The notes under the pieces: model-generated | Databases searched by the model: none | What the model saw: only the letters and a program-made list of their open reading frames with translations | What the model was told of the DNA's origin: nothing | In this document: piece by piece, positions 3,047-11,976 of the stretch | How positions within the stretch are numbered: the first letter of the stretch is position 1 | Layout: every line of letters begins with the position of its first letter | Assembly (NCBI GenBank): GCA_027013815.1 | Contig: JALWFY010000111.1 | Location: 1-46,641, forward strand | Origin: Desulfohalobiaceae bacterium | GTDB taxonomy: Bacteria > Desulfobacterota > Desulfovibrionia > Desulfovibrionales > Desulfothermaceae | DNA: 46,641 bases | Reading direction: 5' to 3' | Translations under genes and position numbers: made by a program

Positions 3047-4705
3047 TTATTTACCCTGCATCATGGCTTCTATATCTTGCTTTACGTCCCCTATTGGCTT
3101 TAGGTCAAATTTTTCCACTAGGACCTTGGCTACATTAGGAGACAAAAATCCTGGCAAGGTAGGTCCAAGCCTAATCCCCTTAACACCAAGATACAAGAGT
3201 GCCAAAAGGACTGTTACTGCCTTTTGCTCATACCATCCAATATCAAAAGAGATAGGAAGATCATTTATATCCTGTACCCCAAAGACCTCTTTTAATTTCA
3301 GTGCAATTACAGCCAAGGAATAACAATCATTACACTGTCCTGCGTCCAATATCCTTGGGATACCTCCAATATCTCCAAGGTCCAGCTTATTGTATCTGTA
3401 CTTTGCACAGCCAGCAGTCAAGATCACTGTATCTTTTGGAAGATTCTTGGCAACCTCTGTAAAGTATTCCCTTTTTTTCTGCCTGCCATCACAACCTGCC
3501 ATTACAATAAATCTCTTAATGGCCCCTGATTTAACTGCGTCTACTACCTTATCTGCAAGGGCAAGGACCTGGTTCCTTGCAAATCCTCCAATTATTTTTT
3601 TGTCCTCTAATGAGGTTGGGGGAGGACAAGATTTTGCACGTTCAATGACCTTGGAAAAGTCCTTGGATCCTCCCTTTGGCCTATCTTCAATATGGACTGC
3701 ACCAGGATAGTTTACCACCCCTGTGGTAAATAGTCTGTCTAAATAGTTTCCCCTAACAGGAATAAGACAATTTGTGGTCAAGATAATTGGTCCATTAAAG
3801 GACTCAAATTCCTTGTTTTGGTGCCACCATGAACTCCCATAATTACCAACAAAATGATCGTATTTCTTAAATGCTGGATAATAATGGGCAGGCAGCATCT
3901 CACCATGGGTATACACGTCAATACCAGTGCCCTTTGTCTGTTCAAGTAGCTCTTCCAGGTCTTTTAAATCATGACCACTTATCAATATACCAGGATTGTT
4001 TCTAACACCTAGATATACCTCTGTAATCTCAGGATGTCCATAAGTAGATGTGTTTGCCTCATCTAACAGGGCCATTGTCTTAACACCATATTCCCCAGTC
4101 TTTAATACAAGATTAAACAACTCATCTCCAGATAGATCCTCTGTTACTGCTGCCATTGCCTCAAAAATAAAATCATAAATATCAGGATCTTTATATCCAA
4201 GTATAGCAGCATGGTCTGCATATGCAGCAATTCCCTTCACCCCATAAGTTATAATCTGTTTTAAGGAACGAGCATCTTCATCCTTTATACGTAACCAACC
4301 TGCCTCTTTTGCCTTTTCATAAAAATCTTCGGGATTATCACTATACCAAGTAGCAGCATCATCTAATGGACCATCAAATTCCTTTCCATATTTTTCTTTG
4401 TATGCCTGTAGGAATTTTGCCTTTAGGTCATCCCTCACCTTAAGGGCGTCTTTAATCCATTTCTCAAACCTCTTATTGTCCCATCCAACATTTGTAATAG
4501 TGCTAAATAGGGCCTCGCATACAAACCTACCTACGCTCTCATCTACCTGACCAAACTCCTTAAACTTTTTTGCATAAATAGATATTCCTTCTACTAAATA
4601 AATGAGTAAGTCTTGAAGGTTTGCAGTATCCTCTGGTTTTCCACACACGCCCTTTTTGGTACAACCTGTGTTTTTTGCAGTTTCTTGACATTGATTACAA
4701 AACAT
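3047..4705 (-). CDS. hcp: Hydroxylamine reductase / hybrid cluster protein
   Basis: A 552-residue hybrid cluster protein (prismane). It contains an iron-sulfur cluster and a hybrid Fe-S-O cluster, and reduces NO or hydroxylamine in the cytoplasm. The N-terminal cysteines C3, C6, C15 and C21 ([23 protein letters not shown]) are the anaerobe-type cluster motif. Downstream ligands include the [44 protein letters not shown] and [10 protein letters not shown] blocks. Length is normal. It is third in a cluster after an HD/zinc-ribbon protein and a two-cluster ferredoxin-like protein. A perfect TTGAC-CCAT-GTCAA palindrome 76 bases before its ATG suggests control by an HcpR-type nitrosative stress regulator. 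Confidence 0.97.
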
Positions 4706-4805: not shown

Positions 4806-5498
4806 TTACCCAACAATATTTCCCTTAGGATCAATAACTATCTGTTTTATCTTATAATTTTTATCACTTTTTTCCATACCTTTTTTCACTATAACAGGTA
4901 GACTACTACAACATGGGACTGTCATAATAGCCACTGTAACAGAATTTATTTCATTTTTTAAAAATATATGTTTGAATTTTTCTACATATTCTTCTTTATT
5001 GTCAAACTTTGGACATCCAATCATAACCACCTTCCCTGGGAGCATATCTTTATGGAGATTGGGATATGCAACTGCAACACAATCCGCCATGACTAGTAAG
5101 TCACTATTTTTTAAAAATGGTGCATGGGGAGGAATTAACTTTATCTGAACAGGCCAATGACCTAGACTAGATTGCACCCCTTGTGTTTGAGTTGGTGTAG
5201 GTGCATCTAATATCTGCACCTGAGTAGAAGGACATCCACATTCCAATCTTTCCCTTGATTTAAGATATTCTTCCACAGCCTGTTCATCAAAGTCCTCTGC
5301 CTCTCTTTCTACTATCCTGATTGCATCATTTGGACATTCCCCAAGACAAGCACCCAATCCATCACAATACTTTTCAGCAACAAGCCTTGCCTTTCCATCT
5401 ATTATCTGGATAGCCCCTTCTTCGCACGCAGGGACGCACTGTCCACAACCATCACATCTTTCCTCATCTATTTCTATAATCTTCCTAAGTACCTTCAT
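4806..5498 (-). CDS. Two-cluster ferredoxin-like iron-sulfur protein, hcp partner
   Basis: A 230-residue cytoplasmic protein. Residues ~10-70 form a bacterial ferredoxin fold with CDGCGQCVPAC and CDGLGACLGEC motifs for two [4Fe-4S] clusters. The remaining ~150 residues contain further cysteines (ECGCPS, IGCPKFD, VPCCSSLP) that may bind another cofactor. Proteins of this layout are commonly encoded next to hcp in anaerobes and probably donate electrons to it; that role is inference. It starts 4 bases after the HD-domain gene stop, so translation is coupled, and it lies 100 bases before hcp. Confidence 0.85.
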   Translation of the reverse strand: MKVLRKIIEIDEERCDGCGQCVPACEEGAIQIIDGKARLVAEKYCDGLGACLGECPNDAIRIVEREAEDFDEQAVEEYLKSRERLECGCPSTQVQILDAPTPTQTQGVQSSLGHWPVQIKLIPPHAPFLKNSDLLVMADCVAVAYPNLHKDMLPGKVVMIGCPKFDNKEEYVEKFKHIFLKNEINSVTVAIMTVPCCSSLPVIVKKGMEKSDKNYKIKQIVIDPKGNIVG

Positions 5499-7299: not shown

Positions 7300-8001
7300 T
7301 TATGGTTTCCAGACCTCCCACACCTTTCCAACTAAATCTGGTCCAGGGGTCAATGTCTTGCCACCTGGTTCCCAACCTGATGGAGTAACCTCTCCTGTCT
7401 TGACCACATGTTGAAACGCCTTTATCTGCCTGAGTAGTTCTTTTGGATTCCTGCCCACCTCAGGGGTCAAGACTTCCATTGCCCTGATATTAAAGTCAGG
7501 GTCTATGATGAATCTGCCCCTAATATCTACCCCTGCATCTTCATCATATACCCCATACACTGTACCTATCTTTCCCCCTGGATCAGATAGGATTGGAAAA
7601 GGAACACCACCATCTAACATCTTGGTAAGTTCCATCTCCTGCCACGTCTTGTGCACAAATCTACTATCTGTACTAATTGCAAGGATTTCCACATTAAGGG
7701 CCTTGAATTCATCATACAGGCTCGCAACCGCAGCCAACTCAGTAGGTCAAACAAAGGTAAAATCCCCTGGATAAAAACAAATTACAATCCATTTCCCCTT
7801 ATAATCTGAGAGCTTAACGGGCTTGAATCCATAACCCTCTATATATGCACTTGTCTCAAAATCCACTGCTTCTTTTCCAACCCTAACTAACATATCTACA
7901 CCCCCTTTTTTTAAATCAATGGCCTCACCTGCCCTATCTCCTCCTTCTGGAATTATTGGCCCTTTTGTTGGGGCCACGCAATCATCTTTTAATCTTCCCA
8001 T
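7300..8001 (-). CDS. Selenocysteine-containing peroxiredoxin (TGA read as Sec)
   Basis: Two frames separated by one TGA make a single AhpC/Prx1-type peroxiredoxin of about 233 residues. The peroxidatic motif, normally FTFVCPTE, reads FTFV-TGA-PTE, so TGA at 7747-7749 sits exactly at the catalytic Cys position (residue 85). Directly after it a hairpin with a GGTT loop forms a bacterial SECIS element. The usual C-terminal resolving motif VCP is VTP ([11 protein letters not shown]), so there is no canonical resolving Cys; Cys8 and Cys75 are the only cysteines noticed. The start at 8001 is chosen because GGAGG lies 8 bases before that ATG, whereas an ATG at 8007 would be only 2 bases away. It lies 14 bases after fprA in the same operon and should reduce peroxides. 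Confidence 0.92.
7719..7735 (-). promoter_or_regulatory. Bacterial SECIS element
   Basis: Eleven bases after the TGA the minus strand reads GGCTGCGGTTGCGAGCC: GGCT pairs with AGCC, GC with GC, with one bulged G, leaving a GGTT apical loop. The loop G-G-T about 17 bases past TGA matches the known bacterial SECIS pattern recognised by SelB. Confidence 0.8.
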
Positions 8002-8015
8002 ATCCATGCCCTCCT

Positions 8016-9209
8016 TTATTTTAATTGTTTCAGCCTTGCTGCCACCTGTTTCCCTAAATCCCTGCACATATCAAGACCCTGTGCATTTGGCACATATTGG
8101 ATCCTGAGTGCCGGAGAAACTATATCAAACTTCATCTCTTCAAGTAGTTTTTCAATTACCTTAGGGGCCTCACCGCTCCAGCCATAAGAACCAAAGGCAG
8201 CACCTATTTTATTCTGAGGCCTAAGGCCTTTCATATATGTGAGAAAATCAGAAACCGTAGGAAATATGTTATTGTTCAAAGTTGGTGAACCTATCAAGAC
8301 TGCCCCAGAATCTAAGACCTCTGTTATTACATCACTTCTGTGGCAAGATTTTAGGCTCATAAGTTTTACATCTATCTGTTCTTTAGCAATCTCTTTGACT
8401 ATCTCTTCTGCCATAATCTCTGTACTGTGCCACATGGTGTCATATACAACAAGGGCCCTGGATTTTTGCTCTTGCTTACTCCATTCAACATAACGGGAAA
8501 CAATATCTGGGATATTTTTAGTCCATATCACCCCATGATCTGGACAGATCATGTTAAATTCCAGCTTTAGCTTTTGTATCTTTTCTACTAATTTTAATAT
8601 CAAATTAGAATAAGGATATAAAATATTTGCAAAATATTTCTTGGCCTGTTTAAACAATTCATCTTTATCTACCTCATAGTCAAATCTCTTTGATGTTGCA
8701 TAATGTTCCCCAAATGCATCACTGGAAAAGAGTATCTTTTCTTCAGGGATATAGGTAAACATACTATCAGGCCAATGGAGCATCCTTGTTTCAATAAACA
8801 TGAGCTCTCTTTTTCCAATACTTAATTTATCCCCATCTCCAACTGGGATAAAATAAAATTTATCTCCAAAATGTAAGGACAAATTTTTCTTTCCCATCTT
8901 TGAACAATAAATAGGTTTATCCTTACCAATTAAATGCATTAATCTTGGGATAGATCCACTGTGATCCATCTCAGTATGATTGCTTATAAGTATGTCAATT
9001 TTCTTAGGATCAATTATCTGTTTTATGTTTCCTATAAATTGTTCATACAAATGTTCCTTTACTGTATCTATTAATGTTATTTTTTCATCTAAAATAAGGT
9101 ATGCATTGTACGTTGAACCTTCATATGTGGAATATCCATGAAAATCCCTTATGTTCCAATCTACTGCACCAACCCAATATATATTGTCTGCTATTTTTAC
9201 AGGTCCCAT
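8016..9209 (-). CDS. fprA: Flavodiiron protein (rubredoxin:oxygen/NO oxidoreductase)
   Basis: A 397-residue A-type flavodiiron protein. Residues ~1-245 are a metallo-beta-lactamase-fold diiron domain with the HTEMDHSGS ligand motif, further histidines at LHWPDS and a later CPDHGVIW. Residues ~250-397 are a flavodoxin domain ([41 protein letters not shown]). Such proteins reduce O2 to water or NO to N2O with rubredoxin electrons in the cytoplasm. The ATG is preceded by AAGGAGG. It heads an operon with the selenoperoxiredoxin. A possible sigma-54 promoter and inverted repeats lie upstream. Confidence 0.95.
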
Positions 9210-9616: not shown

Positions 9617-10639
9617 TTAATAAGATTCTTCATAACCCAAATCATCTTCAGTTAAAGGATGTGCAAATTTTCTATAGACCCAAAACTGGTACAATATAAC
9701 AATGGGTACAAATATCAAGGCTACTGTTAGCATTATTTTTAATGTAAGTGGACTGGATGAACCATTATATATTGTTATTGAATATTTTGAATCAATAGAA
9801 GATGGAAGCATATTGGGATAAATTCCAAGTACTCCAAATAGTGTGCATCCTGCAATTGTAATAGCTGAACCTATCCAGGCCTTTATCCACTTCTGTTCTG
9901 CCATAGAATTCCTAGACAAAAAGATACCATATATAGGAACCAACAATATTGGTATAAGATAAATGTGGTGAAAATAGTTTGAAAAAATATTAGTAGAAAA
10001 TACTGACATAGCCAAAAATAATACAAAAACAATGACTTTGGCTTGCCATATCTTAGTTGCCAATACTCCTGCCCTCATTTGTAGTTCACCTCTGGTCCTG
10101 ATACATAACCATAGTGCACCATGTTCTAGAAACAACAATACAAATAGGACGCCTCCAATGAGTCCATAGGGATTTAATAATGTAAGTATATTTCCATGGA
10201 ACACACCATTTTCATCTATTGGTATCCCCTTGAAGATATTGGCAAATGCCACACCAAGTAATAGTGCTGGCACAAAACTACCAATAAAAAGACAAATATC
10301 CCATATTCCCTTCCAAAATCTACTTTCTACTTTGCCCCTAAATTCAAAGGATACACCCCTTATTATAAGTGCTACTAAAAGTAACATTAATGCAGTATAT
10401 AATCCTGAAAACATCACTGCATATGTCTTTGGAAATGCAGCAAATGTAACCCCTCCTGCAGTGATCAACCACACCTCATTTCCGTCCCAAAAGGGTCCCA
10501 TTGCATTATATATATATCTTTTTTCCTGTTCATTTTTTGCAAGAAATGGCATGAGGGTGCCAAGCCCTAAGTCAAATCCATCCAATATAAAATATATTAC
10601 CCACAATATTCCCCATAACAAAAACCAAATGGTATTCAT
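9617..10639 (-). CDS. cydB: Cytochrome bd oxidase subunit II
   Basis: A 340-residue integral membrane protein with about eight to nine hydrophobic helices. The opening FLLWGILWVIYFILDGFDLG and GPFWDGNEVWLITAGG are diagnostic for CydB. With CydA it forms the quinol oxidase that reduces O2 to water with high affinity, protecting an anaerobe from traces of oxygen. It follows cydA by 26 bases. No small CydX-type ORF was recognised. Confidence 0.96.
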   Translation of the reverse strand: MNTIWFLLWGILWVIYFILDGFDLGLGTLMPFLAKNEQEKRYIYNAMGPFWDGNEVWLITAGGVTFAAFPKTYAVMFSGLYTALMLLLVALIIRGVSFEFRGKVESRFWKGIWDICLFIGSFVPALLLGVAFANIFKGIPIDENGVFHGNILTLLNPYGLIGGVLFVLLFLEHGALWLCIRTRGELQMRAGVLATKIWQAKVIVFVLFLAMSVFSTNIFSNYFHHIYLIPILLVPIYGIFLSRNSMAEQKWIKAWIGSAITIAGCTLFGVLGIYPNMLPSSIDSKYSITIYNGSSSPLTLKIMLTVALIFVPIVILYQFWVYRKFAHPLTEDDLGYEESY

Positions 10640-10665
10640 ACCTTATACCTCCTGAAATTTAAATA

Positions 10666-11976
10666 TTATCCTTGAACTGGTTCAGGACCTTTTCTTGCGT
10701 ATTTAAACAATAAATAAATGTCCACGGCCCCTAAAAAGGTATATAACAAGGTCAAAAGTACCAAAGAGAAATATACTTGAGAACCAGCAATAGGAGATAC
10801 TGCATCAGATGTCTTTAATACTCCATATACAATCCAAGGTTGTCTTCCAACTTCTGCAACCACCCATCCTGCCTCTATGGCAATATATGGGATAGGAATG
10901 GCCCAGGGGAGAAATTTTAATATCTTGGGCTTGTTCTCAAGCCTATTTCTCTCCCTCCATGCCAAGAAGGACAGGGCCAGGAGCAAAAATCCCAGACCAA
11001 CCATAAGTCTAAAAGACAAAAAGGTGAGTAAAACAGGAGGTCTCTCGTCTTTTGGAAAGTCCCTAAGACCCTTTACCTCGGCAGATGGCCTGTCATAGGC
11101 CAATATACTTAATACCCCAGGAAGGGGCAAAATCTCTATCTTGTTTCTCTCATGTTCCTCATCTGGTATGAGAAAAAGATACATTGGCGCATATTTTTTT
11201 GTCTCCCAAAAAGACTCCATTGCCGCAAGCTTTGCAGGCTGTTTATGGGCAACCTCACTTCCATGTATATGGCCCTGCACAACTAAAAACACCACAAATA
11301 TAAGAGACCATATTGAGGCCAGACGAAAGGACTTTTTAAAAAAATTAAACTCCCTGTCCCTTAATAGATGATAACTAGATATACCTAGGATGAAAAATCC
11401 AGCCAGCACATAGGCTGAAGACAAGGTATGAAAGATTTGCTGCCATGCAAATGGATTGGTAACAACTGCCTTAAAACTGCTCAGTTCCGCACGCCCATTT
11501 CTAATCACATATCCAACTGGATTTTGCATAAACCCATTTGCAAGTAATATCCAAATGGCAGATAGATTAGATGCAAAAGCCACTAACCAGATGGAAACTG
11601 CATGAAGTTTAGGGGATAGCTTTTCCCATCCAAAGACCCAAACAGCCACAAAGGTAGACTCCAGAAAAAAAGCCGCTGTTGCCTCAATGGCAAGTAAGGA
11701 ACCAAAAATATCTCCTACATATTCAGAATATCTTGCCCAATTTGTACCAAACTGAAATTCTAGGGTTATCCCTGTAACTACTCCTAGGGCAAAATTGATT
11801 AAAAATAGCTTACCCCAGAATTTTGCCATCCTCTTATAGTCCTCGTCCTTGGTCATCACATATCTTGTCTCCATAATGGCAACTAGTAAAGAAAGTCCAA
11901 GGGTCAAAGGCACAAAGATAAAATGAAACATAGTAGCCATTGCAAATTGGAGCCTTGATAACCATACAACATCCAT
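10666..11976 (-). CDS. cydA: Cytochrome bd oxidase subunit I
   Basis: A 436-residue haem-bearing subunit with about nine membrane helices. WLSRLQFAMATMFHFIFVPLTLG carries the haem-ligand His near residue 18, and VAEVGRQPWIVYGVLKT is the conserved GRQPW block. The quinol-binding Q loop around residues 230-310 is of the short type (the protein is well under the ~520 residues of the E. coli enzyme). It is preceded by a HEAT-like gene whose stop is 3 bases away, so translation is coupled. Confidence 0.96.
   Translation of the reverse strand: MDVVWLSRLQFAMATMFHFIFVPLTLGLSLLVAIMETRYVMTKDEDYKRMAKFWGKLFLINFALGVVTGITLEFQFGTNWARYSEYVGDIFGSLLAIEATAAFFLESTFVAVWVFGWEKLSPKLHAVSIWLVAFASNLSAIWILLANGFMQNPVGYVIRNGRAELSSFKAVVTNPFAWQQIFHTLSSAYVLAGFFILGISSYHLLRDREFNFFKKSFRLASIWSLIFVVFLVVQGHIHGSEVAHKQPAKLAAMESFWETKKYAPMYLFLIPDEEHERNKIEILPLPGVLSILAYDRPSAEVKGLRDFPKDERPPVLLTFLSFRLMVGLGFLLLALSFLAWRERNRLENKPKILKFLPWAIPIPYIAIEAGWVVAEVGRQPWIVYGVLKTSDAVSPIAGSQVYFSLVLLTLLYTFLGAVDIYLLFKYARKGPEPVQG

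Follow-up and report, generated by a model that had tools for sequence, protein, structure and literature searches.

The window, i.e. the whole stretch of 46,641 nt that was analysed, carries on its minus strand prxU, a gene encoding a peroxiredoxin with selenocysteine (Sec) at the peroxidatic position. The reading frame runs from ATG 8001-7999 to TAA 7302-7300, comprises 233 codons and contains a single in-frame TGA, on both sides of which the translation matches one and the same peroxiredoxin. The following features lie at the locus:

7300..8001, minus strand: prxU, selenocysteine peroxiredoxin, long form of 233 aa (match to NF040737, 352 bits)
7747..7749, minus strand: Sec codon TGA at the peroxidatic position, residue 85 of the long form and 49 of the proposed short form, kept in relatives
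7719..7735, minus strand: SECIS hairpin GGCUGC-GGUU-GCgAGCC with one bulged G and a GGUU loop (family covariation)
7384..7386, minus strand: Thr206 in VTPSGW, replacing the resolving Cys of typical 2-Cys peroxiredoxins
7777..7779, minus strand: Cys75, ten residues before Sec (VICFYP)
7894..8001, minus strand: N-terminal extension, codons 1-36, with Cys8 (codon 7980-7978), predicted to be disordered
8010..8016, minus strand: Shine-Dalgarno sequence 1 (AAGGAGG) of the long form, overlapping the end of the flavodiiron gene (duplex -12.2 kcal/mol)
7899..7907, minus strand: Shine-Dalgarno sequence 2 (AAGGGGGTG) within the reading frame, conserved (duplex -14.7 kcal/mol)
7891..7893, minus strand: internal ATG (Met37), proposed start of a 197-aa short form
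8016..9209, minus strand: flavodiiron protein gene directly upstream of prxU, 14 nt gap, putative operon
9617..11976, minus strand: cydAB, cytochrome bd oxidase, further upstream

Sec85 is embedded in the sequence FTFVUPTE, and the protein matches the AhpC-TSA and 1-cysPrx_C domains. The NCBI equivalog model for PrxU (NF040737) covers residues 6-232 with a score above its curated cut-off of 270 bits. The gene is a member of the named family PrxU, i.e. of the Sec-dependent peroxiredoxins with Prx1/AhpC fold, and shares with the thioredoxin-dependent selenoperoxiredoxins described by this model the peroxidatic Sec, the TxxU motif and a profile match over the whole length. PrxU of Eubacterium acidaminophilum is attributed to Sohling 2001 (reference 83 in PMC13188914). 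In the genome, which is 95% complete, prxU is the only AhpC/Prx1-type gene found. The window protein has the fold and the active-site motif PxxxTxx(C/U) of typical 2-Cys peroxiredoxins (AhpC, Prx1/2), but differs from them by carrying Sec, a disordered tail with Cys8, the additional Cys75 and, at the place of the C-terminal resolving Cys in VCP, Thr206. AlphaFold predicts a standard peroxiredoxin core and a disordered tail, the latter with low confidence, and the identity to solved structures amounts to 36-45%.

The PrxU family and decoding of its UGA codon

All components required for Sec incorporation were detected in the same genome: tRNA-Sec (84 bits), SelA (586 bits), SelB (392 bits) and SelD (327 bits). 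A previous sequence-only reading of this DNA had proposed to search for this machinery, and the search was successful. The selD gene (G000:C111:87474-88391, L019) has an in-frame TGA of its own, and SelD is likely a selenoprotein itself. The same reading had noted a SECIS hairpin with a GGUU loop downstream of the UGA codon. As the stability of the window hairpin alone was not above that of shuffled sequences (z -0.13), covariation within the family was used instead. In 43 PrxU genes 88% of the cells of the helix are paired, and 57 double changes were counted as compared to 21 in shuffled alignments. The covariation score was 0.505 versus 0.123 after shuffling, a value reached by 0 of 500 shuffles, and sliding the pairing register destroyed the covariation. 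The hairpin is thus supported by covariation of its helix across the family.

The stop codon itself, but nothing further, could suggest an ordinary peroxiredoxin pseudogene or a sequencing error yielding TGA in place of TGC or TGT. This is refuted by conservation of the TGA in nearly all relatives, and the complete Sec machinery and the SECIS covariation also speak against it, so that we regard it as ruled out for practical purposes. The initial assignment as a Sec peroxiredoxin with TGA at the peroxidatic position is borne out by this conservation, by the NF040737 match and by the Sec machinery.

PrxU proteins above the cut-off were detected in 61 of 297 genomes of a class-level sample, almost all of them containing just one in-frame TGA, and in 129 of 395 genomes of a sample covering the phylum of the window. 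The latter number makes the statement that selenoperoxiredoxins are known in a few anaerobes an understatement. Traits of the family were counted in a tree whose 112 rows include 109 Sec proteins. Among the latter, the C-terminal resolving position is occupied by Thr in 85, by Cys in 13 and by other residues in 11 cases, and 90 possess an N-terminal extension with a Cys. Cys8, Thr206 in VTPSGW and the extension of roughly 36 residues are all present as the sequence-only reading described them, and it was correct in that the resolving Cys is missing and the extension has a lone Cys; however, it took these traits for oddities, and they are normal for PrxU. The Cys ten residues before Sec is found in 105 of the 109 proteins and is a candidate partner for Sec. 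This Cys of the VLCFYP motif is almost invariant in Sec PrxU; Phe is found at its place in ordinary Prx1/AhpC proteins and in four PrxU lacking the N-terminal tail (L055, L057, L058, L059).

The extension carries a conserved motif, GC(A/S/T)(R/K)P (GCxRP). The dN/dS values are 0.12 for the region of the motif, 0.19 for the linker and 0.05 for the core, showing that the tail is under purifying selection at the protein level. Loss of the C-terminal Cys was not seen to covary with the N-terminal Cys: the latter is retained also in genes with VCP. Because these genes keep both residues, the N-terminal Cys is no simple replacement of the C-terminal one.

Signals for translation initiation within the gene

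An internal start point in prxU had been overlooked by the sequence-only reading; this probable second start is the new feature, whereas the PrxU family itself was already known. The sequence AAGGGGGTG (7907-7899) is separated by 5 nt from the ATG at 7893-7891, and Met37 encoded by the latter is located exactly where tail-less PrxU genes begin. In the literature covered, which comprised open-licence papers, no mention was found of PrxU having a second internal start or occurring in two forms.

Conservation was assessed in a main set of 82 non-redundant N-extended Sec genes, or 79 after removal of three genes for exported proteins (L053, L054, L082), from about a dozen phyla, with most of the named relatives being metagenome-assembled genomes, which may be mislabelled. 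A Met 44-50 codons before Sec is encoded by nearly every N-extended gene, and the internal Met is kept in 78 of the 82 genes. ATG or GTG preceded by a Shine-Dalgarno sequence of -6 kcal/mol or stronger was found in 75 of the 79 non-exported genes, and 66 of the 79 still qualified at -8 or stronger; these duplex energies assume one anti-Shine-Dalgarno sequence for all genomes, and the relatives are not independent. In comparison, 3.2% of the Met codons at positions 20-60 in 414 other genes of the same loci reach -8. In the set of 82 genes, the mean duplex energy at the internal start (-10.2) is close to that at the first start (-10.5), whereas Met codons and codons in general of the core average -3.7 and -3.5, respectively. 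Accordingly, the energy profile exhibits a sharp peak at the internal start codon.

When the same peptides were recoded synonymously, the set mean was -6.2 (sd 0.33) as opposed to the observed -10.2. The peptide therefore explains part of the Shine-Dalgarno signal and codon choice the rest. The strength of the synonymous test lies in the aggregate only; for single genes it is weak, with 17% of them at p of 0.05 or less. The Shine-Dalgarno sequence occurs in each of the three codon phases (46, 18 and 10 genes), as selection acting on the nucleotides would predict. Synonymous difference is lowest in the Shine-Dalgarno stretch (0.53 versus 0.66-0.72 elsewhere), and pN/pS is highest there. Predicted local folding at the internal start equals that at the first start, being -6.3 as compared to -11.2 in the core, to which base composition contributes. 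Internal Shine-Dalgarno sequences are depleted in coding regions (PMC5100845), which makes their conservation in PrxU more telling.

In L073 and L147, Met has been lost and GTG is found in its place, while the Shine-Dalgarno sequence is intact. The internal signal is lacking or weakened in four of the 79 cytosolic genes (L041, L071, L140, L144); L144 has ATT at the internal position with the Shine-Dalgarno sequence present, and L071 has lost both elements. Fresh loci from the phylum-level sample provided 29 further non-redundant genes: all 29 have the internal ATG, 28 have a Shine-Dalgarno sequence of -8 or stronger, and the mean is -11.9. The single exception, L190, encodes a signal peptide, i.e. 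among the non-exported genes 28 of 28 carry the internal start with its Shine-Dalgarno sequence.

L190 joins L053, L054 and L082 in a group of paralogous PrxU with signal peptides, which were judged by eye. These four are probably exported selenoperoxiredoxins. They retain the N-terminal Cys and the internal Met but lack the internal Shine-Dalgarno sequence, with energies at this Met of -2.0, -2.6 and -1.5 in L053, L054 and L082, respectively. Thus, the internal Shine-Dalgarno sequence is present in none of the four exported but in 103 of the 107 cytosolic genes (Fisher p = 1.2e-5). A natural Cys version of N-extended PrxU, L182, has a Cys codon in place of TGA and keeps the internal start with its Shine-Dalgarno sequence (-9.5 kcal/mol).

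One gene, two predicted products

A second in-frame start with a functional-looking and conserved Shine-Dalgarno sequence would make prxU a case of dual initiation. We consider it very probable, judging from these sequence signals, that the gene has two in-frame translation starts, giving rise to a long product of 233 aa that includes Cys8 and a core product of 197 aa. We likewise infer that both are produced, and what their functions might be.

Alternatively, only the long form could be made, the internal ATG and its Shine-Dalgarno sequence being either the relic of an ancestral short gene that was given a tail, or a site of elongation pausing. The position of the internal Met exactly at the start of tail-less PrxU would fit a relic, and the exported copies demonstrate that the Met alone can persist without the Shine-Dalgarno sequence. 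However, a relic would decay, whereas this Shine-Dalgarno sequence has persisted across roughly a dozen phyla although peptide and codon phase differ, synonymous change is unusually low there, and GTG substitutes for ATG while the Shine-Dalgarno sequence is kept. A pause aiding Sec insertion is unlikely because the four exported PrxU lack the Shine-Dalgarno sequence; being Sec genes too, they indicate that it is dispensable for Sec insertion. Production of the long form only is therefore improbable in our view. Even less credit is due to the converse, i.e. that only the short form is made and the upstream part is an untranslated leader or a regulatory frame that is in frame by chance. Tail-less PrxU exist and must work, and the purified Eubacterium acidaminophilum enzyme reportedly has its Sec near position 47 and thus the length of the short form. 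But the first Shine-Dalgarno sequence is strong (mean -10.5), the tail exhibits dN/dS values of 0.12-0.19 and the conserved GCxRP motif, it always shares the reading frame of the core, and the curated PrxU model of NCBI includes it.

For clpB, infB and other bacterial genes, it is established that two in-frame starts yield a long and a short form (PMC11005335). The prxU pair resembles these cases in that one gene has two in-frame starts, but here it is known from sequence, resides in a selenoprotein involved in oxidant defence and is conserved across many phyla. If our reading is true, it represents a rare case of internal initiation in a selenoprotein, kept over about a dozen phyla. If both forms are made, studies of PrxU that cloned one start saw half of the system, and annotations as well as mass-spectrometry searches miss one product of a widespread peroxidase of anaerobes. 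Natural controls are built in, namely the tail-less genes and the exported genes without the signal.

The proposed sequence of events starts with the UGA codon, which is read as Sec through the SECIS element just downstream and SelA, SelB, SelD and tRNA-Sec of the genome. Initiation at ATG 8001 would produce the 233-aa form with its flexible tail and Cys8, and initiation at ATG 7893 with its own Shine-Dalgarno sequence the 197-aa core, which begins where tail-less PrxU begin. Peroxide reduction by the peroxidatic Sec is established for PrxU as a family. In the window protein, Sec85 is predicted to attack the peroxide and to be regenerated thereafter by a thiol system, thioredoxin being the most likely one. 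A fragment of a thioredoxin reductase gene is located at a contig end of the genome. Since Thr206 replaces the resolving Cys, another thiol would have to resolve oxidised Sec, the candidates being one from outside the protein, Cys75, and Cys8 in the tail of an adjacent subunit.

Peroxiredoxins with Prx1/AhpC fold form decamers. Mixed rings of long and short subunits would therefore be the likeliest arrangement. In such rings the two ribosome-binding sites would determine the ratio of the forms, and the tail thiol, acting as a tether or as an alternative resolving thiol, would be confined to a part of the subunits. The best structural match of window PrxU is human peroxiredoxin 4, which likewise extends N-terminally into a flexible segment containing a single Cys. 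This residue, Cys51, forms disulfides between neighbouring dimers within the decamer (PMC3824332). However, human peroxiredoxin 4 is a secreted/ER cysteine enzyme with a resolving Cys, and the tail sequences are unrelated, rendering this an analogy only. Whether Cys8 resolves Sec or links dimers is a guess. Our tentative model, which we would call possible rather than probable, is that a mixed ring is built from one mRNA, with the ribosome-binding sites fixing, through the share of long subunits, how many Cys8 thiols per ring are available to resolve Sec or to link dimers instead of the lost resolving Cys, a control that exported PrxU forgo. It may offer an answer to the question of how a peroxiredoxin without resolving Cys can work.

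Neighbourhood and origin of the window gene

At the window locus, prxU forms a sensible oxygen-defence group with the flavodiiron gene and cydAB. Coupling to a flavodiiron protein, as proposed by the sequence-only reading, holds for this locus but not as a family trait: flavodiiron genes or cydAB recur close to PrxU at a few loci only, with cydAB also found in L076, L090, L106 and L122. No conserved operon partner of PrxU was detected among the loci, which have mixed neighbours including scattered genes for catalase, rubrerythrin, cytochrome bd and ferritin. Window PrxU is nearest to proteins of Chloroflexota (84% to L074 in the core region, 75% to L072 across the whole length) and distant from the PrxU proteins of its own class, pointing to probable horizontal transfer. 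Elsewhere in the window, a gene for hydroxylamine reductase (hybrid cluster protein; 3047-4705) lies beside a ferredoxin-like gene (4806-5498), and this gene pair is also found near PrxU in L131.
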